From a virus, in IMG/VR virus record IMGVR_UViG_3300034284_001255, positions 1-21,673 of that record: a stretch of DNA of 21,673 bases. One strand, written 5' to 3'. Under the pieces are notes generated by a model that saw only the letters and a list, made by a program, of their open reading frames with translations, searched no databases and was not told the DNA's origin. A program made the position numbers and the translations under genes. Every line of letters starts with the position of its first letter. The first letter of the stretch is position 1. Of this stretch, positions 1 through 20,725 are shown piece after piece.

Positions 1-1
1 G

Positions 2-406
2 GCTGCGAAGCGCGGAGAGGCGCTAGCGGCTGCGTCTAAGGTCATCGACCGCTACATCTATAACAACCTTGCCCCACAGATTGCCGCAAGGACTCCAGTC
101 GATACTGGTGCGTTGGTGAATAGCCTTACAAGCCCAGAGGCGCCTGGGGCTATCTATAAGGGCGTCATCACTGGCAGCCAGTTCAATCTTGTCTACGGCA
201 CAGAGATGGATGCGCAGATGCGTTACGAATACTACGGAGGCGGAAAGACTGGCTCTGGATCAGTCCCGTACCCATATTTCTACCCTGGGGACGTGGAGCA
301 GGAGCACGGAATGATCTCCTACGGCTTGACCGTTTGGCGAGATATTCTCCACACCTCAGCCCTAGGAAACATCTCTAAGGCGATCCTGCGGGTGCTTAGG
401 CGGTAG
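2..406 (+). CDS. HK97 gp10-like head-tail connection protein, 5' end outside window
   Basis: This reading frame is open from base 2 and ends with TAG at 404-406, giving the last 134 residues of a protein whose start lies left of the window. It carries the TPVDTGAL motif (about residues 31-38 of the visible part), the signature of the HK97 gp10/minor head-tail protein family. After it come a Tyr/Gly-rich segment and a helical end. Members of the family are about 110-170 residues and help join the head to the tail tube. It is the only plus-strand gene here and converges on the metallophosphoesterase gene with an 11-bp tail-to-tail overlap. In most siphoviruses this gene lies next to the tail terminator and in the same direction. 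Here the terminator is 13.7 kb away on the other strand. The family call is from the motif and is fairly sure; the exact role is inferred. Confidence 0.75.
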   Translation, partial: AAKRGEALAAASKVIDRYIYNNLAPQIAARTPVDTGALVNSLTSPEAPGAIYKGVITGSQFNLVYGTEMDAQMRYEYYGGGKTGSGSVPYPYFYPGDVEQEHGMISYGLTVWRDILHTSALGNISKAILRVLRR

Positions 407-3005: not shown

Positions 3006-3296
3006 TTACGCGTGAAACTGAACCTCGTCCTCAGGATCAACGACGACCTTCTCCTTCTTCTGGAGACCGTAGGCGGTGTTGTTTGGGTCAAGATACTTTA
3101 CCAGCACCTGGAGCCCTGAGGCAAGACCAGCGGACACCACGGTGCGGAAGTCGCCGCCGCTGATGTCGAGAAGTGGAATGCCAAGACCAAGCGCAACAGA
3201 AATGCTTACCGTAATAAACGTGCGCATCGCATCGAGCACTGCCTCGTCAAGGTCTGTGCCAGCGCGCCATGCGGAAATCGAATCAAGAACGCTCAT
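3006..3296 (-). CDS. holin-like membrane protein, r1t-type
   Basis: The 96-residue product has two hydrophobic stretches, about 26-43 (FITVSISVALGLGIPLLD) and 52-66 (TVVSAGLASGLQVLV). A short loop, DISGGDF, joins them, and a charged C-terminus ends the protein. The pattern, including Asp before the second helix and a loop after it (DPNNTAYG), resembles r1t-type holins common in phages of Gram-positive hosts. It would make membrane lesions that release the adjacent endolysin. The start has AAGGAG with 7-nt spacing. It sits 9 bp after the coiled-coil membrane gene and 24 bp before the endolysin gene, so the three probably share one transcript. The family assignment is by pattern, not alignment. 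Confidence 0.62.
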   Translation of the reverse strand: MSVLDSISAWRAGTDLDEAVLDAMRTFITVSISVALGLGIPLLDISGGDFRTVVSAGLASGLQVLVKYLDPNNTAYGLQKKEKVVVDPEDEVQFHA

Positions 3297-3573: not shown

Positions 3574-6500
3574 TTAGCGACCCTCTAGTTCCGCAACGCG
3601 TCCCTCTAGTTCTCGAACCCAGCCAAGAAGCGCAGCGACCACGCCCATCTGGTCGTATCCTTCTGCAAGCCCCTCTGACTTAATGACTACGCAGTCCAGT
3701 CCAGCCTCTTCCATCTCCTCAACGATGAATCCTAGGCGTCGACCGTAAATCTCATCGCCGTGCATGCCGCTGTAGTGAACTGGTCGCAAGCGCTTTACGG
3801 CGTCAAGGACATTTTGGTCAAGATCAGTAATTCCTGTCTTGTATCTCCTTGATGAGGAGGCAATCCTGAGTTTCCATGAATCTGTTGATGCTTCCAGCCC
3901 TTGCCACGTAGCGCTGAGACCAGCAAAGGTGACTGGGGTACTTCTTTGCATATATGCTGAGTTGGCAAGTAGGGAAATACTCGTATTGAACCTAATTCCA
4001 CCAGCCGCGAGCCCATCACTACCACTGTTGTAGTCCATATAATAATCTGTTTGATCTCCTGGGTAGATTCGGTCGGCTCGAATGTTGCCTGCTTGGTTGA
4101 CGGCAGACCCCGAACTGAAGGTAAAAATACCGCTAGAATTTACTGCAATGTTTGCAAGCGTTGCGTCTGATACGTTTCTGAAAAACAAAGCGGCGTAGCC
4201 GCCAGATGGGGCATCAGCGTATAGACCGCCTCCGTTAGCAACAACGGAGAATGCATTAATGCCCCCAGAAACTCCTAGTTCACTGCCAACTGTTAAGTCG
4301 TTACCTACAGCAAGCGATCCGCTGGTTCGGATTGTGTTTGTGGCGCTCTGGTAGAGGTTTCCGCCGCCAGTGTATTTTGGACCACTTGATGGGACAGTGA
4401 GGAACACCATCTCGCCATCTGCTGGGATTGGGTAACCACCGCCAGATCCCGTTCCCAGTCGATTCATTGTTGTTCCCAGGGCAAGCCCACCAGTTCCAAG
4501 AATTCCTGGGGCGGTGCTGCTGGTCGATGAGGCGGAGACAAACAGACCGCCTGGTGCAACAAGCGTCAGGTTCTTGTACTCGCGCAACGTCGATGGGCTT
4601 GTAAGAGTCCTGGACCCAGCGTAGGGCATGACTGTAGTAATGGTCCCAGCGGCTCTATCCACTGCCGTTACACGGTGCGCCTCGTCTTGCGAGTCTCCAT
4701 TAGTGATGCCGCAGTTATGCCACGAGACGTACGCCCCAACGCCAATCGTGTGGTTTGCACCAATTGTGGTAGTCACGGTTCCCTGTGAAGCCCACGACGC
4801 TGGGGAGATTGCGGTTACTGTCCATAGGGAGTAGTCAAGAGAACCAGATTCAGGGACTACCTGGATCGAAGATCCGCCTACGTTGGTCGTCACTCCGCTG
4901 ACAGTTACTGGCTGCGGCTTCATCTTGACAAGCCCAAGAGTGTTTAGGACCGCCCCGTCGCTCTGGGAGAATGTTGCTGAGTTTTGCAGCGTAATGTCTG
5001 AGGCGATGACGGAGCCAGAGTTGCTGACGCTGAAGTTTGTTGACTGGATTGCGGCAGTGCTTGTGCGCAGGTATGCCACACCGCCCCCAACGTATGTCCC
5101 AATGGCATTGCTTGTCACCGTAAACTGCGTCGCCGTTGCTGATGCAACCGTAGCGTTTGTGAGGTTGTAGGCGACTGGGTCGACCCCAGTTATGGTGACG
5201 GTTCCGCTAACAGAAAATGAGTTATCAGCGGTGTAGGTTACGGTTGTCCCGTTCCCAGATACGTTTGTGATAATTGCCTCGCTGGTCGCGCCAAGCGGGG
5301 TGAGAGTCAGCGAACCAGAAGTGATGTCTCCAGCATTGATGCTGTCGATGTCTACGGAGTTAACCTTTCCCGCGGCAACCGAATCTGAAGAGTCAGGCGT
5401 TTCGTCCCCGTTGACATATGCCCACGTGCTCTCGTTTCCAGAATTGTCAATTGCTAGCACTCGATACCAATAGAATCGACCGTATTGGCTGTTCTCTGAA
5501 CTTGCGCTTTCGCTTTGGGCAGTTACTGGGTGGACCACAGAAGACGACTCGTAAAGGTACGTTTGAAGCGTCGCATCAGCCCATGCGGATGCGGGGAACG
5601 AGTTAGTCGAGTTGCTTACGCGCTGCAACTTGAACTTAGAAAAGTCCTTGTTATCCGTGACAGTGAGATCAAAGTCCCACGAGATGAGCACTGAGGCAAT
5701 ACTTGATGTTGCAAGCATGTTTGTTGGTGGGTTTGGCGGCACGGTATCCAACGGAGCAAGGATGGCATTAGATGCGCCAGCAGCCGCAGTAGATGGCAGG
5801 GAGGCGTTGGACATAAAGTCTGTTGCAACGACTCGTGCAGCAACGTACTTTCCAGAGGGGGCATTGTAGTTTGCGGTAATCGTCGCTGGTGCGCCAGTTC
5901 CCGTTGATTGGTTCCTTGGAATAATCTGCTGCGTTGGAGCAGTGAAGTTTGCTGCGTCTACCGCGGTGTCTGCCTCAGCGAAGTCGACACGGTAGGAACG
6001 AAGGTCTGGCTCAGTGTTTGGCGACCAGGTGACGGTAACGACAGACTTTGCGTTGCCATCGTTGTCAATCTTCGCTGTTGCCGCGCTAAGGACTGGTGCG
6101 GCGGATGTAACTGGGTCTGAAACTGGTGGCTGCGGAGCAATCGCGTCCGTGACGTAGTCTTGTAGGTTCTGGACGGCAACGTTGACCGCGTAGAGCCGCG
6201 TCTGAGTAATTGTAGGATCTCCGCCCAGTTCACTTGACCAGAAGAACCTTGTTCCCTCGTAGGTGGCAGAGTTTGTTCGTACGATAAACGGCTCAGCGAT
6301 GTCGCCAGTCTCCCAGATGAATGGGACGACGTTTCCAGCGCGAAGGCTGGTGTGTTCAGTCTGATGGTCAAAGGAAACGGTGCGGAGCGGAACTCCCTCT
6401 TTCTCAAACGTTCCAGCGGCTCGATATGCAGAGCCAATGTCATCGATGACACTCTGGTCAAAGATGTTCGCGTAGATCTTTCTGCCGCGCATAGCCCATA

Positions 6501-7827
6501 CGCCGCGGGGGTGCTCGTATTCGTTATACAGGTTGTGCGTTGTTGGGTTCTCCCAAGCACCATAGACGCGGACAGCGTTCTTGGCGTCAGCACCTTCAAT
6601 AGTCGTGGAAGGGTTCTCAAAGTCGTTCCAAATGAAGCCGTCTGCGTCCCCGTGGTTTGCAACGCTCTTTCCTGTTTCAAGGAATCCAAACGTTGTGTCG
6701 ATAGGGATGACCTGGATATCCGTGATGTCGATGCGCTCTTGGCGGGCACCGCTAGACGAAGATTTTCCAATCGTGAGCGATAGCCGAATGGTGTTTGGGG
6801 CGCTGTTGGTATGCGTAGACATGAACCAGCCAGTTGTCCATTCTGTCTGAGACTTCTCCAGAGCCAAGTGCGTGTCGTGGATTGTCGTTGATGGGGACTG
6901 CACCCAATGTAGGTGAATCTGAGGATGCGCCTGCCCGCTATCGTTGTTGCTTGTTCGATAGCGGAATGTGACCATATAGGTCGTGGCGTAGTCGCCCGTC
7001 ACTGTGGTTGGGACATAGACTTCCTGCTCTCCAGTTGGAGAACCAGTGACTTCGAAGCGTAGGTATGTTCCGCTGTTGAACGGACCGCCAGAGGTCTCCC
7101 TCGTCAGCGCTGTTCCAGTGGGTGCTGCCGTCCATCCTGCGGTGTTGTTTACGGCGCTGCCGTTGGTCATGATGTCTCGCACGTTGCTCTTTGCGTAGTG
7201 GAAGTTCAGCGCCTCGTCTACCCAGTAGGTGTAGCCCGTCTTTGAGATGACTGACTCCAACGCCTGCTTGACCGTCATTCCCTGGTAGCGCTCAACAAGG
7301 TAGGTGTCAGGGTTAGAGAAGACGTACTGCGACGTGCTGCGGATGTATGGGATATCTGTGGCGGTTGGCTGGTGGTCGAGGGCGCACATCTGCCAGATAG
7401 GCGTGCTGGTGATGCCGTCTACGTGCGCAAAGATCTGGGCAATCACCTGAACGTCAGAGGTTCGCTCCGCAACCGTCATGTCGTCAATCACTACTACGTC
7501 AAAGATAGACGTGTAGTCAGCGAGTTCAAGAGACTGAACGACGTGGTCGCCTTCCTGCGATGGGGAGATCGACGTGACGAACCCGCTAAAGAGCCACTGG
7601 GCATCGCCACCAAGGGCTGTATCCCTGACGCGAATCAAATCCCTGACAGAGAACTCTCGCTTTGTGTATTGCCCAGTTCCGAATGGCAGCAATGTGAAAA
7701 CGTCCATGCGGCATAGGGAGTTAATCCCGCTGGCGTTCTGCTCTAGGCTTACGGAGGTGAAGTCAACCTGATCCGTGATGTCGACGGCTGACCCGCCGTA
7801 CTGGGTCCACAGTACTTCGTATGACAT
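3574..7827 (-). CDS. tail-tip/baseplate protein with FN3 domains and C-terminal S74 self-cleaving chaperone
   Basis: The product is 1417 residues. Residues 1-210 and about 380-560 look like a tail-hub (Gp37/Tal-like) fold. A jelly-roll-like segment with carbohydrate-module character lies between (about 220-375). Two FN3-like domains follow (about 572-690 and 695-810), then a long Ser/Thr/Gly-rich beta region (820-1310). The end has the intramolecular chaperone S74 pattern: SSRRYKTGI (Ser1325, Lys1330), GFIVEEMEEAG, and a final coiled coil. In this family the chaperone folds the trimer and then cuts itself off, here losing about 93 residues. The start overlaps the tape-measure stop as TAATG, with GAGG nine nt upstream. 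It probably forms the tip that contacts the host surface. No separate distal-tail (Dit) gene is seen after the tape measure. The S74 call is strong; the hub domains are by position and pattern. Confidence 0.82.
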   Translation of the reverse strand: MSYEVLWTQYGGSAVDITDQVDFTSVSLEQNASGINSLCRMDVFTLLPFGTGQYTKREFSVRDLIRVRDTALGGDAQWLFSGFVTSISPSQEGDHVVQSLELADYTSIFDVVVIDDMTVAERTSDVQVIAQIFAHVDGITSTPIWQMCALDHQPTATDIPYIRSTSQYVFSNPDTYLVERYQGMTVKQALESVISKTGYTYWVDEALNFHYAKSNVRDIMTNGSAVNNTAGWTAAPTGTALTRETSGGPFNSGTYLRFEVTGSPTGEQEVYVPTTVTGDYATTYMVTFRYRTSNNDSGQAHPQIHLHWVQSPSTTIHDTHLALEKSQTEWTTGWFMSTHTNSAPNTIRLSLTIGKSSSSGARQERIDITDIQVIPIDTTFGFLETGKSVANHGDADGFIWNDFENPSTTIEGADAKNAVRVYGAWENPTTHNLYNEYEHPRGVWAMRGRKIYANIFDQSVIDDIGSAYRAAGTFEKEGVPLRTVSFDHQTEHTSLRAGNVVPFIWETGDIAEPFIVRTNSATYEGTRFFWSSELGGDPTITQTRLYAVNVAVQNLQDYVTDAIAPQPPVSDPVTSAAPVLSAATAKIDNDGNAKSVVTVTWSPNTEPDLRSYRVDFAEADTAVDAANFTAPTQQIIPRNQSTGTGAPATITANYNAPSGKYVAARVVATDFMSNASLPSTAAAGASNAILAPLDTVPPNPPTNMLATSSIASVLISWDFDLTVTDNKDFSKFKLQRVSNSTNSFPASAWADATLQTYLYESSSVVHPVTAQSESASSENSQYGRFYWYRVLAIDNSGNESTWAYVNGDETPDSSDSVAAGKVNSVDIDSINAGDITSGSLTLTPLGATSEAIITNVSGNGTTVTYTADNSFSVSGTVTITGVDPVAYNLTNATVASATATQFTVTSNAIGTYVGGGVAYLRTSTAAIQSTNFSVSNSGSVIASDITLQNSATFSQSDGAVLNTLGLVKMKPQPVTVSGVTTNVGGSSIQVVPESGSLDYSLWTVTAISPASWASQGTVTTTIGANHTIGVGAYVSWHNCGITNGDSQDEAHRVTAVDRAAGTITTVMPYAGSRTLTSPSTLREYKNLTLVAPGGLFVSASSTSSTAPGILGTGGLALGTTMNRLGTGSGGGYPIPADGEMVFLTVPSSGPKYTGGGNLYQSATNTIRTSGSLAVGNDLTVGSELGVSGGINAFSVVANGGGLYADAPSGGYAALFFRNVSDATLANIAVNSSGIFTFSSGSAVNQAGNIRADRIYPGDQTDYYMDYNSGSDGLAAGGIRFNTSISLLANSAYMQRSTPVTFAGLSATWQGLEASTDSWKLRIASSSRRYKTGITDLDQNVLDAVKRLRPVHYSGMHGDEIYGRRLGFIVEEMEEAGLDCVVIKSEGLAEGYDQMGVVAALLGWVRELEGRVAELEGR

Positions 7828-10800
7828 TAGCGCTGCCTCAGGGTGCGGGTCATCCTCTTCTCGACGGCTTCAGCCAAGGCGTAGATATCCTTGTCGTCGC
7901 GGATACTTCCTGGCGCAAAGTTGAAGTTCATGACAGTCACGTTGCCCATTGTACCCTCAAGTCCAAGTTTCATGGGCTTGACCCCTGTCAACTGGTTGAC
8001 GAAGTCTCCAAGACCAATCTTCATGGCAAAGTCGCCCTTGAAGGTGTCCTTCATACCCGTGAGCATGTTCTTCGCGAGCCTGCTGCCCCAGTTGCTCTGA
8101 TCCTCAGCCAGCGGTCCAGCCTCGGTTGGGCTCTTAACCTTAAGGTACTTGGCAATGATTGCAGCAAGTTCCTTGGCGGCGGTGTCCATTACCTTCTTGC
8201 TCTTCTGTAGACCGTAGGCAAGGTTCTTTCCTAGCGTCTCGCCAATCTCCTCGTAGTTGTTTCCAAGGGTCTCAAACTCCTTAAGAGTCTCCTTGGCAAA
8301 GTCTGCGCCCGTCATCTTGCCCTGCTTCAGGAGCGCTGCCATGTCCATCACGTTGTTCTCAAAGGCAAGCAGGTCCGCTTCCATCTGCGTCTTGAGCGCC
8401 TCTTGCTGCGCCGTCATTAGGTCCATAGCGGTCGTATGCTGGTCTTCCAGTGCTTGGAGCGCATCGTCGTAGGCGCGCTTCTCCGCATCCTTTCGATCAG
8501 CGTAGTCCCGCTCCCACAGTTCCCTCTGGTCGTCGATTGCCTCAGCCTGAACGTCCAGGGCGTCGAGAGCAGCCTGCTCCTGGGCGCTTAGGTTGAAGTC
8601 GTCTAGGGCTGCGCGAGCCTCAGCAACGTTGCGGGCAGCCTCAAGCGGGTCAAGAGTTCCAGATGCCTGCTGGGCGATAGCGAATGCAAGGTCTCGCTCC
8701 AACTTAGCGCGGTCGTCCTCACTCTTGCGCTCGTCGCTTGCCTTGTTGAGCGCGTCCCGCTGATCGTTGATGCCTTCTAGTGCGTCGTCAAAGAAGCGGT
8801 CTTGGGCAGTCTTCTCATCGTCGAACTGACGCATGCGCTGCTCATGTGCTCGCTTGGCAGCCTCCTTCGTGCTCTCGAACTGTTTCTTTTGCGCATTCTT
8901 GAGGTCTTCGATTGCATCAATCTCAACCTCATACATCTTCTTCGTTTCAGACTTTACCTTATCAATCCAAGCCTTCAACTTTGCATCAAAGTCGTCCCAC
9001 TTATTCTTTCCGCCACCACCACCGCCGCCCTTCTTAGGCTTGGTTACACCACCGCGCATGTCGCCAACGGCTGGCAGGTTTGGGTTGAAGAGGTCGTCGA
9101 GCGTGTATGGCGCGTTTGGCGCGACGCCAGAGCCAGAGACAGCAGCGCTTGTCTTGCTCTTAGTTTCCGTGAAGATGTCTACCTTAACCGTCTTGAGTCG
9201 CTCCATCTTGCCAAAGACGTTTCCAAGGGTGGCGTTGTACACGTCTACGAGCATGTTCAGTTTTTCAATGATGCCGTTGATGATTCCTGCGAAGAATCCA
9301 GCCACAGCCTTAACCCCAAATCCAATTGCCCCAACAATTGCGCCCATGACGGTGCTCAAGATGGAGAGCGGACCAGAGATGATTGCCCCAATGATTGATC
9401 CAAAGAACCCAAAGACTTTTCCAATAATGTTTCCTAGGAACATGATAAGCGGCATGACATTTTGCTGGATGATGTCAATAAGCCCAGCAAACTGACCAAA
9501 GAGATTGCCAATGAATACAAAGATAGGCTGGAACGCGTTCAGGATTCCCGTGACAATTCCAGCCACGACATTGAACACTACGCCTAGCAGACCGCTAATG
9601 AGACCAATAAATGCGCCAATGAAGGTGATGATTGGAGAAAGTGCCTCAAACGCTGCGAATAGTGCTGAGATCAATACCTGCAATGGCTCGATGATTCCAT
9701 GAATTGTTGTGAACAATCCCTGGAACATCATGGTAAATCCATCTGCGATAGCAGAGACAATTGCAATCATTGGGGCAAGTAGGCTGTCGTATATTCCCAT
9801 AAGCATCTCAAAGATGCCCTGAGTCTTTTGTCCGCCCTGCTCTACACCGTTAAAGATTACGGCAAATGTATCCACAATTCCAAGAAGTGGCTGGAGTGCG
9901 CCGCCAATGACGTTGATCCAGAACTGCGTAACTTGGCTGAGGTAGTTAATAATTGGGAAGACAAATTCAGATAGCACTGCCGCTACAATCTTAAAGCCTT
10001 GCGCAATACCGTCGATAAGGACCTGCGGACCTTTGCCGCCCGTGACGGCGTTAAGGAACTTATCCATTGCTGCCGCAATAGTGTTTGCGCCATTCGCTAG
10101 TTCAGGGCTGAGGAGCAAGTCCTTAAACTTTTGGATAAAACCTAGGCTGTTTGGGTCTTCGCTACCCATGAAATCAAAGAACGGCTTAAACGACGTCGCC
10201 ATAAGGGTTTGGGAGGTGTCTGCAATGGTCGCCATTGCGCCAGCAAACGTGTTACCAAGCCTGTCTTGTGATCCCTGGAAGCGGTCCTGCATTCCTGTTA
10301 GAAGCGCGTCCGCCGCGCCCCTGCCGCCAAGTGCGCCAATCCTTGTAAGGGCTCGCACGGCTTCAACAGAGAAGCCCTTTGTGACGTCAAACCCAAGCGA
10401 CGTCGCCTTCTTTGCCAACTCAACAGCGTCCTCAGATCCAGCCTGAAGTTTCTTAAACAATTGCTCGCCAAGGATTTCATAACCGTTGATACCAGCATTT
10501 GCCAACTGCATCATTTGGCGCTGGTAGACACGACCGCTGTTTCGCATTTGCCCAAGGGCATAACCAATGCGCTGCATCTGCTCTTCGCTACCGCCCATTG
10601 CAGCAACCGCTTCACCAATGGCATTGATGGCGGGAACTGTCTCTTCCGCGGCAAATCCGTACGCGCGCATCTTCTTCGACATGTCCAGAATTTCTGGGAA
10701 GCGGAACGGCGTTACGTTCGCATAGTTCTTCAGCAACGTTACGTAGTCTTGAGCGGCGTGCTTTGCCGCTTCAGTTCCTTCAACTACCTGGGTAAAGAAC

Positions 10801-12059
10801 CCAGGCTGCTCTAGCGCTGCCTGCTGAACATCCGCAGCGGTAGCGTTTGAAATACCCTTCAACTTATTGTACGACTGAATCAAGTCTTCAATTGTTAGTT
10901 TTAGATTTGATCCAGCCTCTTTGTCTTTGGTAAACGGAGATGGACCCCCAGCCTGCGTCGTGGCAGTGTAGATGCCCATGGTCTCGGTCCAGACCTTGTT
11001 GATGCCCTTCATATCGTTGCCAAACTTGTCCGTGCCGCCATCAAGCGCAGTCTTCAGGTCTCCAGCGGCTACGACTCCGCGGCGAATTTCATTTGTAATA
11101 AGCGTTTCAAACGCGACGTTAGCCGTTTGCAGCGTTGAGTTGAAGTCAATAATACCGCTGGCAAGGTGGTCTAGCGATTGGGTCATTGCCGTCATCGCTT
11201 TCGCTTGGAGATAGACCGCGCCAACCTGCTTTGCCATCTTTGCAAAGTTGCCAACGATTCCAGCAAGCCCGCTGAATCCGCTTAGTTTCCCCGCCGCTGA
11301 TGCAATGCCCGTCGCAAGGGCGGCGGACTTCTGAACTGCTGACGCAATTTTACTAACAACACCTTGTGCGGCAGAAGCCATTCGACCAAACGCGCCGCTG
11401 CCCGTGCCGCCCAATCCTTGCAGACGGCTTGCCATATTCCCAATACCCTGACCAAATCGGGAGAACATAGCGCCAGAGAATCCAGCAAGGATTCCGCCAA
11501 CTGAGGCACCAACCCCTGCGATTCTTTGTAGTGCCAAGCCGATCCCAGAGATTGCAGCGCTTGCTGCCCCAGCCTGCGGAGTGATCCCAGAGAGTGACCC
11601 TCCAATTGCCGCCCTAAGTTTTGCAAACCCTATTGCCGCAACGCTGGTAGAAGTCCCAATCAAGCCAATTCGAGCAGCAAGTGTATTGACCAGACCAAGG
11701 GTTCCCTGAAGCCCAGTCTGCATCTTTGATCCTGAAGCCTGAACCCCAACGCCAGCGTTGTATGCGCTTTGACCAACGGTCTTTAGACCCGTCCCTGTCG
11801 CGTTCGCTACCGTCGCAGCCGCGCGTAGGGCAGCCGCCATTGCGGTGATTGGATTTGTTGCTGATGCGGCTGACTGACCAGTGCTCGCAATAGATGTCTT
11901 AGCCTGGTCAGACCCGCTTGCCGCAGACTTCGCTGCTGGGGCTACGCCATTGAGAGACTGCTGTAGTGCCGTCAGGCTCGCAATGGCGGTAGTGAGACCC
12001 TGCACAAGTTGCGCAGAGTTGACCCGCAGGTCTAGATTTAGTTGCTCGTTATTAGCCAT
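7827..12059 (-). CDS. tail tape measure protein
   Basis: At 1410 residues this is one of the two longest genes here and follows the chaperone frameshift pair, the standard place for a tape measure. The N-terminal third is Ala/Gly/Ser-rich and helical. A strongly hydrophobic stretch (about 670-940) has repeated FIG/IIG segments likely to insert in the host membrane at DNA entry. A seven-Gly run near 1013 is followed by a charged coiled coil (about 1020-1240). The end has a motif typical of tape measures, KSPTEAG...NWGSRLAKNMLTGM. With the usual rule of about 1.5 angstrom per residue the tail would be near 210 nm. The ATG follows the upstream TAG by 2 nt and has no good ribosome site, so translation is probably coupled. 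No lysozyme or peptidase motif was noticed in it. Confidence 0.93.
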   Translation of the reverse strand: MANNEQLNLDLRVNSAQLVQGLTTAIASLTALQQSLNGVAPAAKSAASGSDQAKTSIASTGQSAASATNPITAMAAALRAAATVANATGTGLKTVGQSAYNAGVGVQASGSKMQTGLQGTLGLVNTLAARIGLIGTSTSVAAIGFAKLRAAIGGSLSGITPQAGAASAAISGIGLALQRIAGVGASVGGILAGFSGAMFSRFGQGIGNMASRLQGLGGTGSGAFGRMASAAQGVVSKIASAVQKSAALATGIASAAGKLSGFSGLAGIVGNFAKMAKQVGAVYLQAKAMTAMTQSLDHLASGIIDFNSTLQTANVAFETLITNEIRRGVVAAGDLKTALDGGTDKFGNDMKGINKVWTETMGIYTATTQAGGPSPFTKDKEAGSNLKLTIEDLIQSYNKLKGISNATAADVQQAALEQPGFFTQVVEGTEAAKHAAQDYVTLLKNYANVTPFRFPEILDMSKKMRAYGFAAEETVPAINAIGEAVAAMGGSEEQMQRIGYALGQMRNSGRVYQRQMMQLANAGINGYEILGEQLFKKLQAGSEDAVELAKKATSLGFDVTKGFSVEAVRALTRIGALGGRGAADALLTGMQDRFQGSQDRLGNTFAGAMATIADTSQTLMATSFKPFFDFMGSEDPNSLGFIQKFKDLLLSPELANGANTIAAAMDKFLNAVTGGKGPQVLIDGIAQGFKIVAAVLSEFVFPIINYLSQVTQFWINVIGGALQPLLGIVDTFAVIFNGVEQGGQKTQGIFEMLMGIYDSLLAPMIAIVSAIADGFTMMFQGLFTTIHGIIEPLQVLISALFAAFEALSPIITFIGAFIGLISGLLGVVFNVVAGIVTGILNAFQPIFVFIGNLFGQFAGLIDIIQQNVMPLIMFLGNIIGKVFGFFGSIIGAIISGPLSILSTVMGAIVGAIGFGVKAVAGFFAGIINGIIEKLNMLVDVYNATLGNVFGKMERLKTVKVDIFTETKSKTSAAVSGSGVAPNAPYTLDDLFNPNLPAVGDMRGGVTKPKKGGGGGGGKNKWDDFDAKLKAWIDKVKSETKKMYEVEIDAIEDLKNAQKKQFESTKEAAKRAHEQRMRQFDDEKTAQDRFFDDALEGINDQRDALNKASDERKSEDDRAKLERDLAFAIAQQASGTLDPLEAARNVAEARAALDDFNLSAQEQAALDALDVQAEAIDDQRELWERDYADRKDAEKRAYDDALQALEDQHTTAMDLMTAQQEALKTQMEADLLAFENNVMDMAALLKQGKMTGADFAKETLKEFETLGNNYEEIGETLGKNLAYGLQKSKKVMDTAAKELAAIIAKYLKVKSPTEAGPLAEDQSNWGSRLAKNMLTGMKDTFKGDFAMKIGLGDFVNQLTGVKPMKLGLEGTMGNVTVMNFNFAPGSIRDDKDIYALAEAVEKRMTRTLRQR

Positions 12060-12061
12060 AA

Positions 12062-12609
12062 CTACTTAGGCTTCTTTTCTGGAGACTTCTCTCCATAGCG
12101 AGCAACAAGTTCGTCTAGTGAGGAAATGCTTTGGGTGTTCCCAGACGTGCCGCCAGACTTCTTGGAATTTTCCTTCAGGCGGTCTGACTGCCGCTTGGCG
12201 TATTCGCCGTACTCAGCAAGTTGTGGCAAGGTAAGGCAGAAGAACTGCTCAGGCGTAAACCCGTACGCTTCTCCAAACGATGCCATTACTTGCCCCCATT
12301 CTAAATCTTTCCAGCCTAGACCGCGCTGGCTTTTCCCGTTGCATCATCCTCTCCAGCGGCAAGACCACTTGCCTTCAGGACAGGTTGTACTTCGGTCAGA
12401 AGATTGGTTAGGTCAAATCGCTCGCCAACCTGCTCTTCAGTAATATCCTTCTCAGCCTTTCGAATCGAAAGCCAGAGAACGGTACGAAGAATCGAGAAGC
12501 GTGTGAAGTCAATGTCTGAGAGAGAACCGTATCGATCCTCCAGCAGAGCCAGATCGTTCAGCGTGAGCGCGCTTTTACCTTGCGCCGCGCTTAGCGTGTT
12601 TGCCGCCAT
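12062..12609 (-). CDS. tape-measure chaperone GT-like fusion made by -1 frameshift
   Basis: A second reading frame, -1 to the 12316-12609 gene, is open from 12343 to the TAG at 12062-12064. Slipping at GGGAAAA (12331-12337) joins residue Lys93 of the first ORF to 89 more residues, a 182-residue product. The segment just after the slip (WKDLEWGQVMASFGEAYGF) runs into TPEQFFCLTLPQLAEY, a typical T-domain pattern. The coding signal therefore begins before the internal ATG at 12286. In lambda the G and GT proteins guide tape-measure folding and tail tube polymerisation. A few percent of ribosomes shift there; the rate here is unknown. The gene ends 2 nt before the tape-measure start. Independent initiation at 12286 would give 74 residues and has only a GGGGG stretch upstream. 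Confidence 0.82.
12311..12354 (-). promoter_or_regulatory. programmed -1 ribosomal frameshift site
   Basis: On the minus strand the codons ACG GGA AAA contain the slippery heptamer G GGA AAA (12331-12337) exactly in the zero frame. An SD-like GGAGAGG (12348-12354) lies 10 nt upstream, the placement known to stimulate -1 shifting in E. coli dnaX. Downstream, CCAGC and GCTGG (12325-12329 and 12311-12315) can pair across a 9-nt loop that holds the zero-frame stop codon. The stem starts only 1 nt after the heptamer, closer than usual. Confidence 0.82.
12316..12609 (-). CDS. tape-measure chaperone G-like, zero-frame product
   Basis: The 97-residue product is mostly helical (ALTLNDLALLEDRYG; LRTVLWLSIRKAEKD) and lies between the tail tube and the tape measure, where gpG-type chaperones are found. 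The ATG has a strong AGGAGG with 6-nt spacing. The last four codons after Lys93 are read only if no frameshift happens. The end is short and acidic-to-neutral (GEDDATGKASAV). In lambda-like tails the short form is made in excess over the fused GT form. The assignment is from place, size and the frameshift signal more than from sequence match. Confidence 0.82.
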   Translation of the reverse strand: MAANTLSAAQGKSALTLNDLALLEDRYGSLSDIDFTRFSILRTVLWLSIRKAEKDITEEQVGERFDLTNLLTEVQPVLKASGLAAGEDDATGKASAV

Positions 12610-12624
12610 TGAGACCTCCTATAT

Positions 12625-13473
12625 TTACGCTACTGTCACCGTGACAAGGTTGTCGACGGTTGAATCATATTGTAGCGTAAAGTCGAGATCCATGGTAGCG
12701 ATATCTTCACGAACGAACGGGAGGGGCAACTTGTAGATGCAGCCCTTCGAAGCCACGACCTTAACCGTCCCAGAGGCGTCCGTGCGCGTATGGGTGAACT
12801 CAAGGTACAGGGGCTTAAGCGAGATGTTAATAGAAGGATCAATCTGATCCTCCCATCGCCCAGCAGTGCTGTTATAGAACGGGGTCAAATTCAAGCCCAT
12901 AAGGCGAACAAGAGCCAGAGGATCTAGTTCTACCTTCTTTGCGGAGATGGCAGCCTTGCCGCCGTAGAAGTACTTAGCAATAGGGAAGTTAGCCTGCCCG
13001 TAAAATTCCTTCTCTTGGAATTCGATGTTGTACTCAACGTCGCCGCCAATTTCACCAATACTGATAAGACCGCGATCTGACGCGCGCTGATCGGTTTGGA
13101 CCAAGGCAGCAGTGATCTGGTGCCCCGTGTTGGTCGTGGTATTGACAACCTGGCGGAAGCACTGACCGCTTGCGTTACCAACGTAGATGTCGTATGCCTC
13201 AGCCCCAGAGACGTTGGTCCAAGCGACCGTAATCTTCTGGGTCGAAGTGCCGCCGCTGAGGGTAATTGACGCCTCAGCGGACGGCTCTCCTTCCGCATAG
13301 TTAGAACCCGTGATGAGGTTCTTTGCCATGACTTGCACGTAATAGGTCCCGTCTGACAGGGAGCCCCCAGTGCTGGCGCCCGTTAGGGTAATAGTGCCAG
13401 TTACCTGTCCGCTGTAGTATCCTCCAGCGGTCCAAGCCTTTGCCTTAAGTACACCAGATCCAAGCGTCAGCAT
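12625..13473 (-). CDS. tail tube protein paralogue with FN3-like insertion
   Basis: This 282-residue protein shares its start (MLTLGSG), its core (GGDVEYNIEFQEKEF, then GQANFPIAK, YGGK, AKKVELD) and its end (REDIATMDLDF) with the 196-residue gene just upstream. Between start and core it carries an extra beta-rich block (about 28-125) with FN3/Ig character (YYVQVMAKN, KITVAWTNV, AYDIYVGN). Ig-like domains are known to decorate tail tubes, as at the C-terminus of lambda gpV, but here the block is near the N-terminus. The ATG has GAGGT about 9 nt upstream. It is 12 bp after its paralogue and 15 bp before the chaperone gene. It may be a second tube subunit, a decorated tube variant or a tube-end protein. 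Paralogy is plain in the sequence; the function is inferred. Confidence 0.8.
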   Translation of the reverse strand: MLTLGSGVLKAKAWTAGGYYSGQVTGTITLTGASTGGSLSDGTYYVQVMAKNLITGSNYAEGEPSAEASITLSGGTSTQKITVAWTNVSGAEAYDIYVGNASGQCFRQVVNTTTNTGHQITAALVQTDQRASDRGLISIGEIGGDVEYNIEFQEKEFYGQANFPIAKYFYGGKAAISAKKVELDPLALVRLMGLNLTPFYNSTAGRWEDQIDPSINISLKPLYLEFTHTRTDASGTVKVVASKGCIYKLPLPFVREDIATMDLDFTLQYDSTVDNLVTVTVA

Positions 13474-13485
13474 TTGGGTATTACC

Positions 13486-14076
13486 TCACTCTACTTCGAC
13501 GGTGAACACCTTGTAAGTGCTCACGCCGCTTGTCGTCTTGCGGTCAGCAATAGCGCTGAAGTCGATATCCTGCGTCGCGATGTCTTCGCGGGTGAACGGA
13601 TAGGTCAACTTCATGCTGAATGCCTTCCAAAGGTGAATCTTTACCTTCTTTGAAGGGTCATCCGAGCGCGTGTGCTCGAATCGAACGTAGAGAGCAGGCG
13701 GTACAGGCGTTGCACCAGTGGTGAACGTGCCAGTCTCGGCGTAAGTCTCTGCGTTGTTGTCAGTCCCCGAGGACTGGGTTGCGCCAAGGAGGCGCTTCAG
13801 GTTTCCGAAATCGAGTTCGACCTTCTTGGCGCCAAGGCTAACCTTGCCACCGTAGAAGCCCTTAGCGATTGGGAAGTTAGCCTGACCGTTGAACTCCTTC
13901 TCCTGGAACTCAATGTTGAACTCGACGTCGCCGCCAACTTCGCCAATGAGGTAGAGACCTGAAGTTCCGTATGTCGTTGGATAGTAGGTGTCGATGCTTG
14001 CAAGGTCCCATGACCCCGCTGCCGCAGTGCCGCTATAAGCCGCTGCGTATACCTTACCACTGCCAAGTGTAAGCAC
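13486..14076 (-). CDS. major tail tube protein
   Basis: This 196-residue beta-rich protein lies between the tail terminator and the chaperone/tape-measure genes, the usual place for the tube protein. It has conserved core GGDVEFNIEFQEKEF (about 48-62), GQANFPIAK (64-72), AKKVELDF (83-90), RFEHTRSDD and PFTREDIAT. The last two match the loop-rich C-terminal half of the downstream paralogue. The start is GTG (14074-14076), chosen for its strong AAGGAG with 8-nt spacing and because MLTLGSG is shared with the paralogue. The tube is normally built of hexamer rings of this protein. It lacks the FN3-like block, so it is the likelier main subunit. No membrane helix or signal is present. Confidence 0.83.
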   Translation of the reverse strand: MLTLGSGKVYAAAYSGTAAAGSWDLASIDTYYPTTYGTSGLYLIGEVGGDVEFNIEFQEKEFNGQANFPIAKGFYGGKVSLGAKKVELDFGNLKRLLGATQSSGTDNNAETYAETGTFTTGATPVPPALYVRFEHTRSDDPSKKVKIHLWKAFSMKLTYPFTREDIATQDIDFSAIADRKTTSGVSTYKVFTVEVE

Positions 14077-14563: not shown

Positions 14564-15385
14564 CTATTCTTTTGCGGCAGCCTGCTTTGCTTGGTATTCC
14601 TCGCGCCCTTTCTGTAGGGCGACGGCGGTTTTCTCGACATGTGCCTGCACCTGCTCTGGCGTGCGCTGAGCCATGTACTCTTTCACCTTGGCGTTACGCC
14701 GCTTTCTTCCCTGCTCACCCATCTCTGCGACGCCCTTGCGCGTGGCTGCCACGCGGCGCTCCTTGATCTCAGGGTCAGCCCACTGCGCCTTCATCTTCTT
14801 GCTGAACTCCTGCTTGCGCTCCTCAGTCCACTTCGTTGGGCGACGGACAGGGCGCATTAGTTCTATGTCGTCTGCCGTCTTCAGTGGGCTGGCTGCCCGC
14901 AGTTCACACTTGGCATTGGGGCAGAGGGGGCTTCGTGCGCACTCGTGGCAGAAGGCTGCAACAGACCGCTTGTAGATGACCAGAAGGTCACGATCCCTGC
15001 TGGGCTTAGCGGAGATGTTCTTTGCCCCAATCTTTCCCGCCATGCGACGGCAGTCATCGCCGCAGTATTTCCTTGGACCACTGAAGCCCTCAGAGCGGAA
15101 GATGCATTTGCACACTAAGCAGTGATGGGTATAGAGCGTGTCAAGCCACGCTTCAAGTGTGGAGTTATCTAGGGCATCGCCAAGGGGTCCGCCGTACTTA
15201 GACGGAGGTAAGTGCACGCCGTAGAACCAGTGCTGCACCGTACCAGCGGGAACGCCTAGGCGCTCAGCAAGCATGGTAACGCTGATGCCCTTCCTTTTTA
15301 AGGCTCTTTTCAGAAGGGAATTAAACACCTTCCGCTTGCCCGTGGTAGACATCCTGCGCGCTTTTTCAAGAATCTCCTCAGCCAT
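14564..15385 (-). CDS. helix-turn-helix protein with two Cys clusters, putative regulator or nuclease
   Basis: This 273-residue basic protein starts with a helix-turn-helix (about 34-58, SVTMLAERLGVPAGTVQHW). A first zinc-like cluster follows (Cys89, Cys92, Cys108, Cys112), then a second (Cys146, 149, 155, 160). The C-terminal half is long and charged, with WTEERKQEFSKKMKAQWADPEIKERR, which recalls the NUMOD-type DNA-binding repeats of homing endonucleases. No HNH or GIY-YIG catalytic motif was found. It could be a late-gene regulator or the remains of a free-standing endonuclease. It overlaps the upstream 49-residue ORF by 8 bp; its ATG has only a distant GGAG (16 nt), so translation may be coupled. 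A second start at Met12 is possible. Motifs are seen directly; the function is open. Confidence 0.68.
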   Translation of the reverse strand: MAEEILEKARRMSTTGKRKVFNSLLKRALKRKGISVTMLAERLGVPAGTVQHWFYGVHLPPSKYGGPLGDALDNSTLEAWLDTLYTHHCLVCKCIFRSEGFSGPRKYCGDDCRRMAGKIGAKNISAKPSRDRDLLVIYKRSVAAFCHECARSPLCPNAKCELRAASPLKTADDIELMRPVRRPTKWTEERKQEFSKKMKAQWADPEIKERRVAATRKGVAEMGEQGRKRRNAKVKEYMAQRTPEQVQAHVEKTAVALQKGREEYQAKQAAAKE

Positions 15386-17914: not shown

Positions 17915-18868
17915 CTATGTCTTGATTATGTAATACAACTTTTGCGACTTTGGATCATGCGTTGCGTGCGCATGCCCGCCGCTGCTTCCAGGGGCAGATA
18001 ACGTATGGGAGTGATTTTCATTTGAGGCAGGCGCTCCGCTGGTATTTGATGTGGCAGATGCCCCAGTGTGGGTATGGGCGGGGTGGGCTGCTGGTCCAGT
18101 GTATGACGTGGTTGTGACTACGTGATTTGACGACGATCCTGCTGAGGCAAGGGAAACAACATGGGTATGCCCTCCACCAGAAACAGAAACCCCAGAAGTG
18201 AAAAAGATGTTTGCATAGGCGGTGTTTGCCCCGCTTGTAATTGAGTGCGTATGCGCTGATCCCGCAAAATTGAACACCCCGTCCACGGTGTGGCTCCCAT
18301 CCCCGCTGCTCCCGCTTGTGCCAGAGGTAGTGCTGTGCGAGTGGCTTCCAGTGTGGGAATGGCTCCCCGCAGGTGTCATGCTTGCGACGTGAGAAGAGTG
18401 TGCGCCATCAGTTGAGTGGCTAAATGACTCATAGAAAGACGTGCCAGTTGTTGCAACCCAGTTAGAGGCATCGCCTGATGGATCTGGCGCAACGGCACCA
18501 AGGGCATTAGATGGACCCATAAGCCAATAGTTGTCGTAGTTTGGCAAGTTAAACGTTGTTGTGCCATCACCCACACCATACTTTGTCCCAATGACCGCAA
18601 ACAAATTTGCGTACGTTGTTCGAGAAACCGCGTCTCCATTGCAGAGAATCCAACCAGACGGGACATTGCTGTGAGCGCCAGCCCATGACGTAACCATGCC
18701 AGGTTTCCCCGCAGCCACAGCAGCGCCGCCGCCCACGTCTGCCCATCCCGTGCTCTTATATACCCTGATTTTCTTAGTAGTTGTATTGAAATAAATTTGA
18801 CCAATGTTGCTTGCCTGGTCGCTGTCTGCGACTGGTAGCCCAAGCGGAGAAACGAAATTTACTGACAT
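17915..18868 (-). CDS. Tail-Collar domain fibre protein with HxH-rich tip (copy 3)
   Basis: The 317-residue product has three parts. The first is a short N-terminal beta segment shared with its two neighbours (GQIYFNTTTKKIRVYKSTGW). Then comes a phage Tail-Collar domain (VPSGWILCNGDAVSRTTYANL, then YGVGDGTTTFNLPN), and last a Ser/Thr/Gly-rich tail full of His-x-His pairs (SHSHTGSHSHS, GHTH, HPAHTHTG, HSHT) ending in KLYYIIKT. In T4 gp37 similar HxH pairs bind iron along a trimeric needle. I chose ATG 18866-18868, not the longer frame to 19015, because homology begins there, AAGGCGG lies upstream, and it is 1 nt after the previous stop. It is probably a receptor-binding or tail-tip fibre. The domain is sure; the role is by family. 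Confidence 0.85.
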   Translation of the reverse strand: MSVNFVSPLGLPVADSDQASNIGQIYFNTTTKKIRVYKSTGWADVGGGAAVAAGKPGMVTSWAGAHSNVPSGWILCNGDAVSRTTYANLFAVIGTKYGVGDGTTTFNLPNYDNYWLMGPSNALGAVAPDPSGDASNWVATTGTSFYESFSHSTDGAHSSHVASMTPAGSHSHTGSHSHSTTSGTSGSSGDGSHTVDGVFNFAGSAHTHSITSGANTAYANIFFTSGVSVSGGGHTHVVSLASAGSSSNHVVTTTSYTGPAAHPAHTHTGASATSNTSGAPASNENHSHTLSAPGSSGGHAHATHDPKSQKLYYIIKT

Positions 18869-18869
18869 G

Positions 18870-19793
18870 TTATGCCGCCTTAATGATGTAGTGAGCCATA
18901 TAGGCTTTGTAAGAGTGATCCGTGTGCGTGTGCGATCCATCGCTTGATGGTGTCGCTGTATGGTTGTGTGTTGCTGGGGAAGCCCCTGAGGTATTGCTGG
19001 ATGTAGACAAATCAAAGACTGGGCTATGCCTGTGTGCTGCGTGGGCAGACCACGAAGACGTGCTTACTGTGTGGCTATGAGTATCTCCTGTAGATACGCT
19101 TGGGGCTGGGTGGGCATGTGCCGTAGACGCTCTGGTCGACGTAGAGGAACTAGAGGTAAGACCAGCCCCAGTTGCTACGGATGCGGTATGACCGTGGCTT
19201 TGCCCGCTATTAGATGTGTCTGAATATGTATGTGCCGCGTTCGTGATCGTAGTCTCTGAGACCGTCGCGGAATGCGAATGCGTATTGCTGTGTTCAGTTT
19301 CCGCCGCCGCCGTGTACGTTAGCGAGTGAGAGTGGTTAGCGGCATCTCCAATGTGAGCAGCAATTTCTTTGGCATCAATAGACCCTTGGCGGAACGTTGA
19401 CGTGTTGTCAATATCGCCAAGAAGACTTAGACCAGGTGCGCCAACGACTTGGTAGCCCTGAAGGTCAGGAACGTTAAAGGTCGTTGAGCCATCACCCGTT
19501 CCGAATCTGGTAGAAATGATTGCGTACAGTCCGCTATAGGTTGACCTAGAAACCGCCTGACCGTTGCAAATCAACCAGCCAGATGGGGCAGACGCGCCAA
19601 GCCACGGCTGCACCGTTCCAGTAGGCATTTCTGAAGTTCCTGAAGATCCAAGATCCGCCCATGACGTCCCATCATGGTATCGAACCTTTTGATTGACGCT
19701 ATCATAATAGATCAGCCCCTCAGAAGAGTAGGCTGTCTCAACATTTGCCTGAGTTGAAACTGGAAGTTTAATGCTTGAAAGAACCTGGGTCAT
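18870..19793 (-). CDS. Tail-Collar domain fibre protein with HxH-rich tip (copy 2)
   Basis: The 307-residue middle copy has the same layout as its neighbours. An N-terminal segment (LIYYDSVNQKVRYHDGTSW) leads to a Tail-Collar domain (PSGWLICNGQAVSRSTYSGL, FGTGDGSTTFNVPD). A long HxH-rich tail follows (NHSHS, THSHS, GHTA, AHAHP, THSHT, NHTA, SHTHTDHS) and ends in YMAHYIIKAA. The start ATG overlaps the stop of copy 1 as ATGA, with only a weak GGTG ribosome site, so it is translationally coupled. It may trimerise with itself or with the other copies. The C-terminal motif x-HYIIK is shared by all three copies in some form. Confidence 0.85.
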   Translation of the reverse strand: MTQVLSSIKLPVSTQANVETAYSSEGLIYYDSVNQKVRYHDGTSWADLGSSGTSEMPTGTVQPWLGASAPSGWLICNGQAVSRSTYSGLYAIISTRFGTGDGSTTFNVPDLQGYQVVGAPGLSLLGDIDNTSTFRQGSIDAKEIAAHIGDAANHSHSLTYTAAAETEHSNTHSHSATVSETTITNAAHTYSDTSNSGQSHGHTASVATGAGLTSSSSTSTRASTAHAHPAPSVSTGDTHSHTVSTSSWSAHAAHRHSPVFDLSTSSNTSGASPATHNHTATPSSDGSHTHTDHSYKAYMAHYIIKAA

Positions 19794-20725
19794 GCTTTCA
19801 CCAGATAATGAACTCGCGCTCGATTTGCAGAATGAGCGCTGTGATCGTGCGAGGCAGTACCGTCTGCTGTCATAGACCCGCCATGGGTGTGTGCGCCATT
19901 GCTACCAGAGGTGCCAGTATATGATGGAGTTGACCCAGTATAAGAATGGTTATGACCGCTGCATGTAGAGCACCCTTCTGTAACGCTGTGGGTATGAGCA
20001 TTTCCCCCAGAGACATTTGCAACTGTGTGGGTGTGGCTTGAGGTTGCGGCGGGTTCTGTCGCTGAAGTGTTACGCACGCCAATTGTTCCAGTAGATGTCC
20101 CAAGGTCTCCAACCGTATGCGCGTGACCTGTAGATGACGTCGATGCGACGTATGTGTGCGTGTGCCCTGGCAATGCCGTGGAACTACTGAACGATGTACT
20201 GGTGGCGTGGTCAATAGCATGCGTATGTGAGCCCTGAGAATTGTCGCTAAAGGTATGTGTATGAGCCCATGTGTCTGTTGAATGGCTAAGGGCAGTAAAG
20301 GGGTCAGCAGTTCCGTAGGTCCAGACTTTTCCGCCAGCAGTGTTGCCAACTGCAACGCCTGCGTTTGCGCTTACCGCGCCAACAAGAGATAGGGCTCGAA
20401 AGTCAGGAAGGTTGAATGTGGTAGAGCCGTCGCCAACCCCAAAATATGTCCCAATCACAGCGAAAAGGTCAGCATATGTTGATCGAGATACGGCAACGCC
20501 TTGGCAGTTAAGCCAGCCAGTTGGGCGATTCCCAGGTAAGCCAACCCAAATGATAATTGACCCCGTTGGCATCTCAATCGTTGTGCCAGACCCTAAGGCA
20601 GCCCAGGAAGATGAGTTCTTCAACTTTAACTCATCTGTAAAACTATTGTAATAAAAAGTGCCCTCATCCGCGGTTGGGTCTGAGGTTAGTTCTGCGTTCT
20701 TTAGGGTGCTTATAAACCTGGGCAT
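19790..20725 (-). CDS. Tail-Collar domain fibre protein with HxH-rich tip (copy 1)
   Basis: The 311-residue first copy has an N-terminal segment (GTFYYNSFTDELKLKNSSSW). Its Tail-Collar domain follows (RPTGWLNCQGVAVSRSTYADL, FGVGDGSTTFNLPDF). The HxH-rich tail (WAHTHTF, SHTHAIDH, GHTHTY, GHAHT, SHTHT, AHTHS, AHTHGG, SHDHSAH) ends in RVHYLVKA. The TEGCSTCSG segment adds a Cys pair. Its ATG lies 6 nt after TATAAT, with no ribosome site, so the message is probably leaderless. It heads a transcript with copies 2 and 3. It is expected to form a metal-bound trimeric fibre tip. Confidence 0.86.
   Translation of the reverse strand: MPRFISTLKNAELTSDPTADEGTFYYNSFTDELKLKNSSSWAALGSGTTIEMPTGSIIIWVGLPGNRPTGWLNCQGVAVSRSTYADLFAVIGTYFGVGDGSTTFNLPDFRALSLVGAVSANAGVAVGNTAGGKVWTYGTADPFTALSHSTDTWAHTHTFSDNSQGSHTHAIDHATSTSFSSSTALPGHTHTYVASTSSTGHAHTVGDLGTSTGTIGVRNTSATEPAATSSHTHTVANVSGGNAHTHSVTEGCSTCSGHNHSYTGSTPSYTGTSGSNGAHTHGGSMTADGTASHDHSAHSANRARVHYLVKA

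Follow-up and report, generated by a model that had tools for sequence, protein, structure and literature searches.

Organization of the tail locus

In this work we have examined the junction between two adjoining tail genes of a virus that infects bacteria. The window, by which we mean the whole stretch of DNA that was analysed, is one viral record (IMGVR_UViG_3300034284_001255; 21,673 nt), and its tail genes lie on the minus strand. In the order of transcription, two tail-tube-like paralogues are followed by a G-like open reading frame, a T-like frame and the tape measure gene. The features of the locus are the following:

13486..14076, minus strand: second tail-tube-like protein, tandem paralogue; function suggested by position
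12625..13473, minus strand: tail-tube-like protein directly upstream of G, paralogue of 13486-14076 with an extra Ig/FN3-like stretch; function suggested by position
12316..12609, minus strand: G-like gene for a putative tail-assembly chaperone of 97 aa, read in the zero frame (open reading frame, phrog_2115, tube and tape-measure neighbours, 47 homologous junctions)
12348..12354, minus strand: SD-like word GGAGAGG, which precedes the heptamer by 10 nt; a role is not supported
12331..12337, minus strand: slippery heptamer G_GGA_AAA, in frame as G codons 92 (GGA) and 93 (AAA); 46 of 47 junctions
12311..12329, minus strand: inverted repeat CCAGC...GCTGG, whose loop contains the G stop; a role is not supported
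12062..12331, minus strand: putative T-like domain of 89 aa past the junction, read in the -1 frame (homologues in the -1 frame at 47 of 47 junctions, weak Phage_TAC_6 matches, coding-like evolution)
12284..12286, minus strand: first ATG of the T frame, Met16 past the junction; an undependable start, replaced in seven relatives
7827..12059, minus strand: tape measure protein of 1410 aa, which follows T directly (PF20155 above cut-off and several tape-measure PHROGs)

The -1 frame is open from 12343 to 12062 (minus strand) and its earliest ATG is at 12286. Joined at the heptamer, 93 residues of G and 89 of T would give a predicted GT fusion of 182 aa, and the Lys93-Ser94 junction named in the initial annotation is right.

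The assignment of G and T as putative tail-assembly chaperones rests on gene order and on weak profile and fold matches. G matched phrog_2115 ('tail protein') in nine of nine family members, and in one member it also gave a weak match to Phage_TAC_11 (PF11836, GTA gp10; best E 0.05). Weak matches of T to Phage_TAC_6 (PF09550) were obtained for four of ten members (best E 0.0059), and the G and T proteins of the window itself matched neither Phage_TAC family. The top viral fold matches include tail assembly chaperones, again weak (E 0.06 and above), and searches of the PDB by sequence and by fold returned nothing useful.

Several other genes of the window (all on the minus strand) can be described. 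An open reading frame at 14564-15385, situated among the tail genes, matches phage transcriptional-regulator PHROGs. Three adjoining reading frames at 17915-20725 all match tail-collar or fibre PHROGs and resemble tandem copies, and the 1417-aa protein encoded at 3574-7827 carries a C-terminal Peptidase_S74 self-cleaving chaperone domain and is probably a tail fibre or spike.

Relatives of the locus

When used as single queries, G, T and the tape measure protein retrieved only near-identical copies of the same phage. The shorter tail-tube protein led to a 50-kb contig (L012; 45% identity) in which the gene order is that of the window and G is 40% identical. The same tandem tube-like pair is also present there (5001-5684 and 5708-6571). 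A profile built from four tube proteins then retrieved 62 viral loci, and profiles of T and G added more, including two loci on contigs binned as Anaerolinea (L224) and Capsulimonas (L225). The heptamer was absent from every motif used in these three profile retrievals. A genome scan with the tube profile gave no confirmed locus, and the same scan with the G profile gave two MAG contigs.

The resulting comparison set consists of 47 distinct homologous G/T junctions, which come from contigs of uncultured viruses and, in one case, from an Anaerolinea MAG contig, and fall into 15 clusters at 75% G identity; sequences within a cluster are related, so the 47 junctions do not represent 47 independent events. 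When G, T and the short tube protein were compared by tblastn with 50,697 phage records, no match was found, and the group is therefore one without an isolated member visible to these queries in that collection. The longer tube protein gave partial, domain-level matches to isolated phages.

The slip site and the frame relation

At all 47 junctions T overlaps G and is read in the -1 frame relative to it. An in-frame heptamer lies near the end of G at each of them, GGGAAAA in 46 and GGGAAAC in one (L224), and the last base of the G stop follows 6 to about 27 nt past it. G was found without a profile-detected T only at three loci which end at the contig end and at L225. The latter is a very distant relative of G, where A_AAA_AAG lies in frame at 3285-3291 and the -1 frame after it is open and of another T-like type; there the slip site has changed and the arrangement has been retained.

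The initial annotation had placed G_GGA_AAA exactly in frame, and so it is (12337..12331). The presence of the heptamer is certainly above chance: the genes of the window comprise about 6,670 codons, and the only in-frame GGGAAAA among them is the one at the G/T site. Codon usage in the family's G genes away from the site is also of a different kind, since Lys is encoded there by AAA in 35 of 302 codons and by AAG in 267 (88%), and Gly by GGA in 62 of 341. The residue which precedes the heptamer's Gly varies (Glu, Ala, Val, Ser and others) and the letters of the heptamer remain constant; on the evidence of this alignment, therefore, the constraint at the slip site is one on letters, beyond the residues alone.

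Could the two frames be joined during transcription, by slippage of the polymerase on the A run, rather than by the ribosome? Homopolymer runs in other genes do yield similar products in this way (PMC5009743). The run is only four A long here, however, and the unit which is conserved is an in-frame X_XXY_YYZ with a G triplet, as tandem tRNA slippage needs. We regard transcriptional slippage as extremely improbable at this locus.

The start of the T domain

According to the initial annotation, the T-like domain begins before any ATG, and the comparison bears this out. Seven junctions (L087, L090, L093, L098, L100, L139 and L146) have no ATG, GTG or TTG in the first 49 T codons past the junction, and in these NWGELSASY replaces DWGSIMASY. 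The T ATG is preceded by a stretch of nine codons, W..I.WG, which in most members lies beyond the G stop and is there readable in the -1 frame only. Before the ATG, diversity in the -1 frame is 0.65 at third positions against 0.33 and 0.25 at the other positions (Trp codons excluded); judged by these values, the stretch is under coding constraint in that frame. In a low-confidence model of T, a helix spans residues 12-23 and would be cut by a start at Met16.

These results also concern the possibility that T is a separate protein translated from the ATG at 12286, by an internal start or by re-initiation after the G stop, its overlap with G being incidental. The ATG is kept at this position in most relatives, and the G-rich stretch upstream of it pairs with the anti-SD sequence about as well as that before G. 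Such a reading, however, has to contend with the seven relatives without a start codon and with the coding constraint on the conserved Trp-rich stretch before the ATG, and it leaves the conserved heptamer unexplained. As the account of the whole junction it is very unlikely, although some separate T might be made where the ATG is present.

The SD-like word upstream of the slip site

The initial annotation further described a dnaX-like SD element, and the word itself is indeed there: GGAGAGG (12354..12348) is separated from the heptamer by a spacer of exactly 10 nt, ATGATGCAAC. In a fully dnaX-like arrangement, the rate of shifting would be set by pairing of this word with 16S rRNA, together with a downstream stem. 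Besides the exact spacing, such an arrangement can draw on the SD stimulators established in dnaX and in many IS elements (PMC5009743) and on the frequency of the word in the family. With the word list and range taken from PMC4066793, SD-like words occur at 37 of the 47 junctions, compared with 19% of the other in-frame places in G, and the anti-SD pairing upstream of the heptamer has a median rank in the top 5% among places within the same G gene.

We found, however, that a control which draws synonymous codons according to the family's usage removes the apparent significance of this rank. In such shuffles 36.5 of the 47 junctions are expected to carry an SD-like word, and pairing equal to or better than that observed arises with a mean P of 0.62 over the 47 junctions (about 0.7 for the word in the window). 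Conservation of the SD-like word beyond the coding expectation was thus not seen among these junctions, ten of which keep the heptamer and have no such word. Near its end G has many Glu, Asp and Gly residues, and most of the SD-like words in the family are an in-frame GAG followed by G. Judging from the control, SD-like words are common here because of what G encodes, namely its Glu- and Gly-rich codons, and the role of stimulator claimed for the element is not supported. One could also turn this around and suppose that the Glu/Gly-rich end of G doubles as a stimulator which pairs with the anti-SD sequence, some of its residues having been chosen at the level of the RNA, so that the G/GT site would be SD-assisted; we consider this doubtful. 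Within the family, an SD-assisted shift would be most plausible in L052, L054, L068 and L075, a lineage with a strong GAGGAGGG about 9-10 nt upstream.

It had also been suggested that a dnaX-style SD element at a G/GT site is less often noted. Phage and IS clusters have already been searched systematically for SD-like stimulators, conserved ones being reported in 3 of 13 (PMC4066793), and the idea is not a new one. In a small mixed sample of known phages, from which no rate of SD-like words can be derived, lambda and Reedo have no SD-like word in range and P2 has one at its T_TTT_TTG site; a scan of HK97, N15 and Bxb1 for canonical heptamers found no site.

The inverted repeat downstream of the slip site

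The third part of the proposed cassette was a 5-bp stem holding the stop codon. The repeat is present, with arms CCAGC (12329..12325) and GCTGG (12315..12311) and a 9-nt loop which contains TAG, and a perfect 5-bp stem this near the heptamer was obtained in 4% of shuffles. The stem begins 1 nt past the heptamer, where the published search rule requires a hairpin to start 4-10 nt after the motif (PMC4066793), and a ribosome on the slip site would keep the RNA at this position unpaired. Nor is the stem the preferred fold, its pairing probability being 0.02 when 45 nt are folded and 0.34 when 90 nt are folded. Across the family, downstream folding energy hardly departs from chance (mean z -0.26 for +1..45). 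Hairpins which satisfy the published rule occur at 27 of the 47 junctions, compared with 21.5 in shuffles, and the window has none. Perfect stems were seen six times against 1.7 expected and are confined to a few clusters. By none of these three measures did the 47 junctions reveal a consistent downstream stimulator, and the stem is not conserved.

The initial annotation had proposed an alignment of related phages for conservation of heptamer, SD-like word and stem. In that alignment only the heptamer proved to be conserved, with the SD-like word at its coding expectation and the stem unconserved, and the description of the site as a complete cassette is not supported. The position of the stem, its low pairing probability and its lack of conservation, taken with the control on the SD-like word, make a fully dnaX-like arrangement unlikely. 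What chiefly determines the shift is probably the slip site by itself.

Discussion

The comparison of relatives strongly supports the central claim of the initial annotation, that a -1 shift joins two putative tail-assembly chaperones. A programmed -1 ribosomal frameshift of the lambda G/GT type, producing both G and the 182-aa GT fusion, is very likely, because the heptamer is conserved, the -1 relation is invariant, some relatives have no start codon for T, and the sequence that precedes the T ATG evolves in a coding-like way. On this model, most ribosomes would read G through to its stop and make the putative 97-aa chaperone. In a minority, tRNA-Gly and tRNA-Lys on GGA AAA would move back one base to GGG AAA, and these ribosomes would then translate the T domain in the -1 frame, beginning at Ser94, to give the fusion. 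G and GT would then act jointly in tail assembly, the G part binding the tape measure protein and the T part recruiting tail-tube subunits; these presumed roles are taken from the literature on lambda (PMC5009743).

The lambda-type G/GT class and its role in tail assembly have been reviewed (PMC5009743), and 6-7% shifting has been measured for HK97-like chaperone genes (PMC3711429). As in lambda, where the site is G_GGA_AAG, G is followed by T in the -1 frame between the tail-tube and tape-measure genes, and a GGGAAA slip site near the end of G is soon followed by the stop. The last base of the heptamer is A here and G in lambda, and the SD-like word upstream has no counterpart in range in lambda. 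G_GGA_AAA is less slippery in E. coli than G_GGA_AAG (PMC4066793). G and T have no detectable sequence similarity to isolated phages. The site resembles E. coli dnaX (A_AAA_AAG with an SD-like word and a stem-loop) in that a slippery heptamer is preceded at 10 nt by an SD-like word. The heptamer is a different one, however, the SD-like word and the stem are not conserved beyond expectation, and the shift lengthens the product relative to the zero-frame protein instead of shortening it.

More questions are raised by the choice of lysine codon. Lysine is mostly AAG in the family's G genes, yet it is AAA in the heptamer at 46 of the 47 junctions. In about half of the bacteria known there is only one lysine tRNA (PMC5009743). 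Where a host has a separate one that reads AAG, it could be AAA that is the slippery codon. Is it possible that the lysine tRNAs of the host influence which heptamer is used? They may be the cause.

The trick itself is known in tailed phages, and what we describe here is an added member of the lambda-type G/GT class in an uncultured group. It provides a clean comparative case of G/GT in phages known from metagenomes only, whose G, T and short tube proteins are unmatched among isolated phages. Gene callers which start T at its ATG will miss the predicted fusion. In this family the slip site is retained although the 'stimulators' beside it appear and disappear, an argument for the heptamer as the essential element here.
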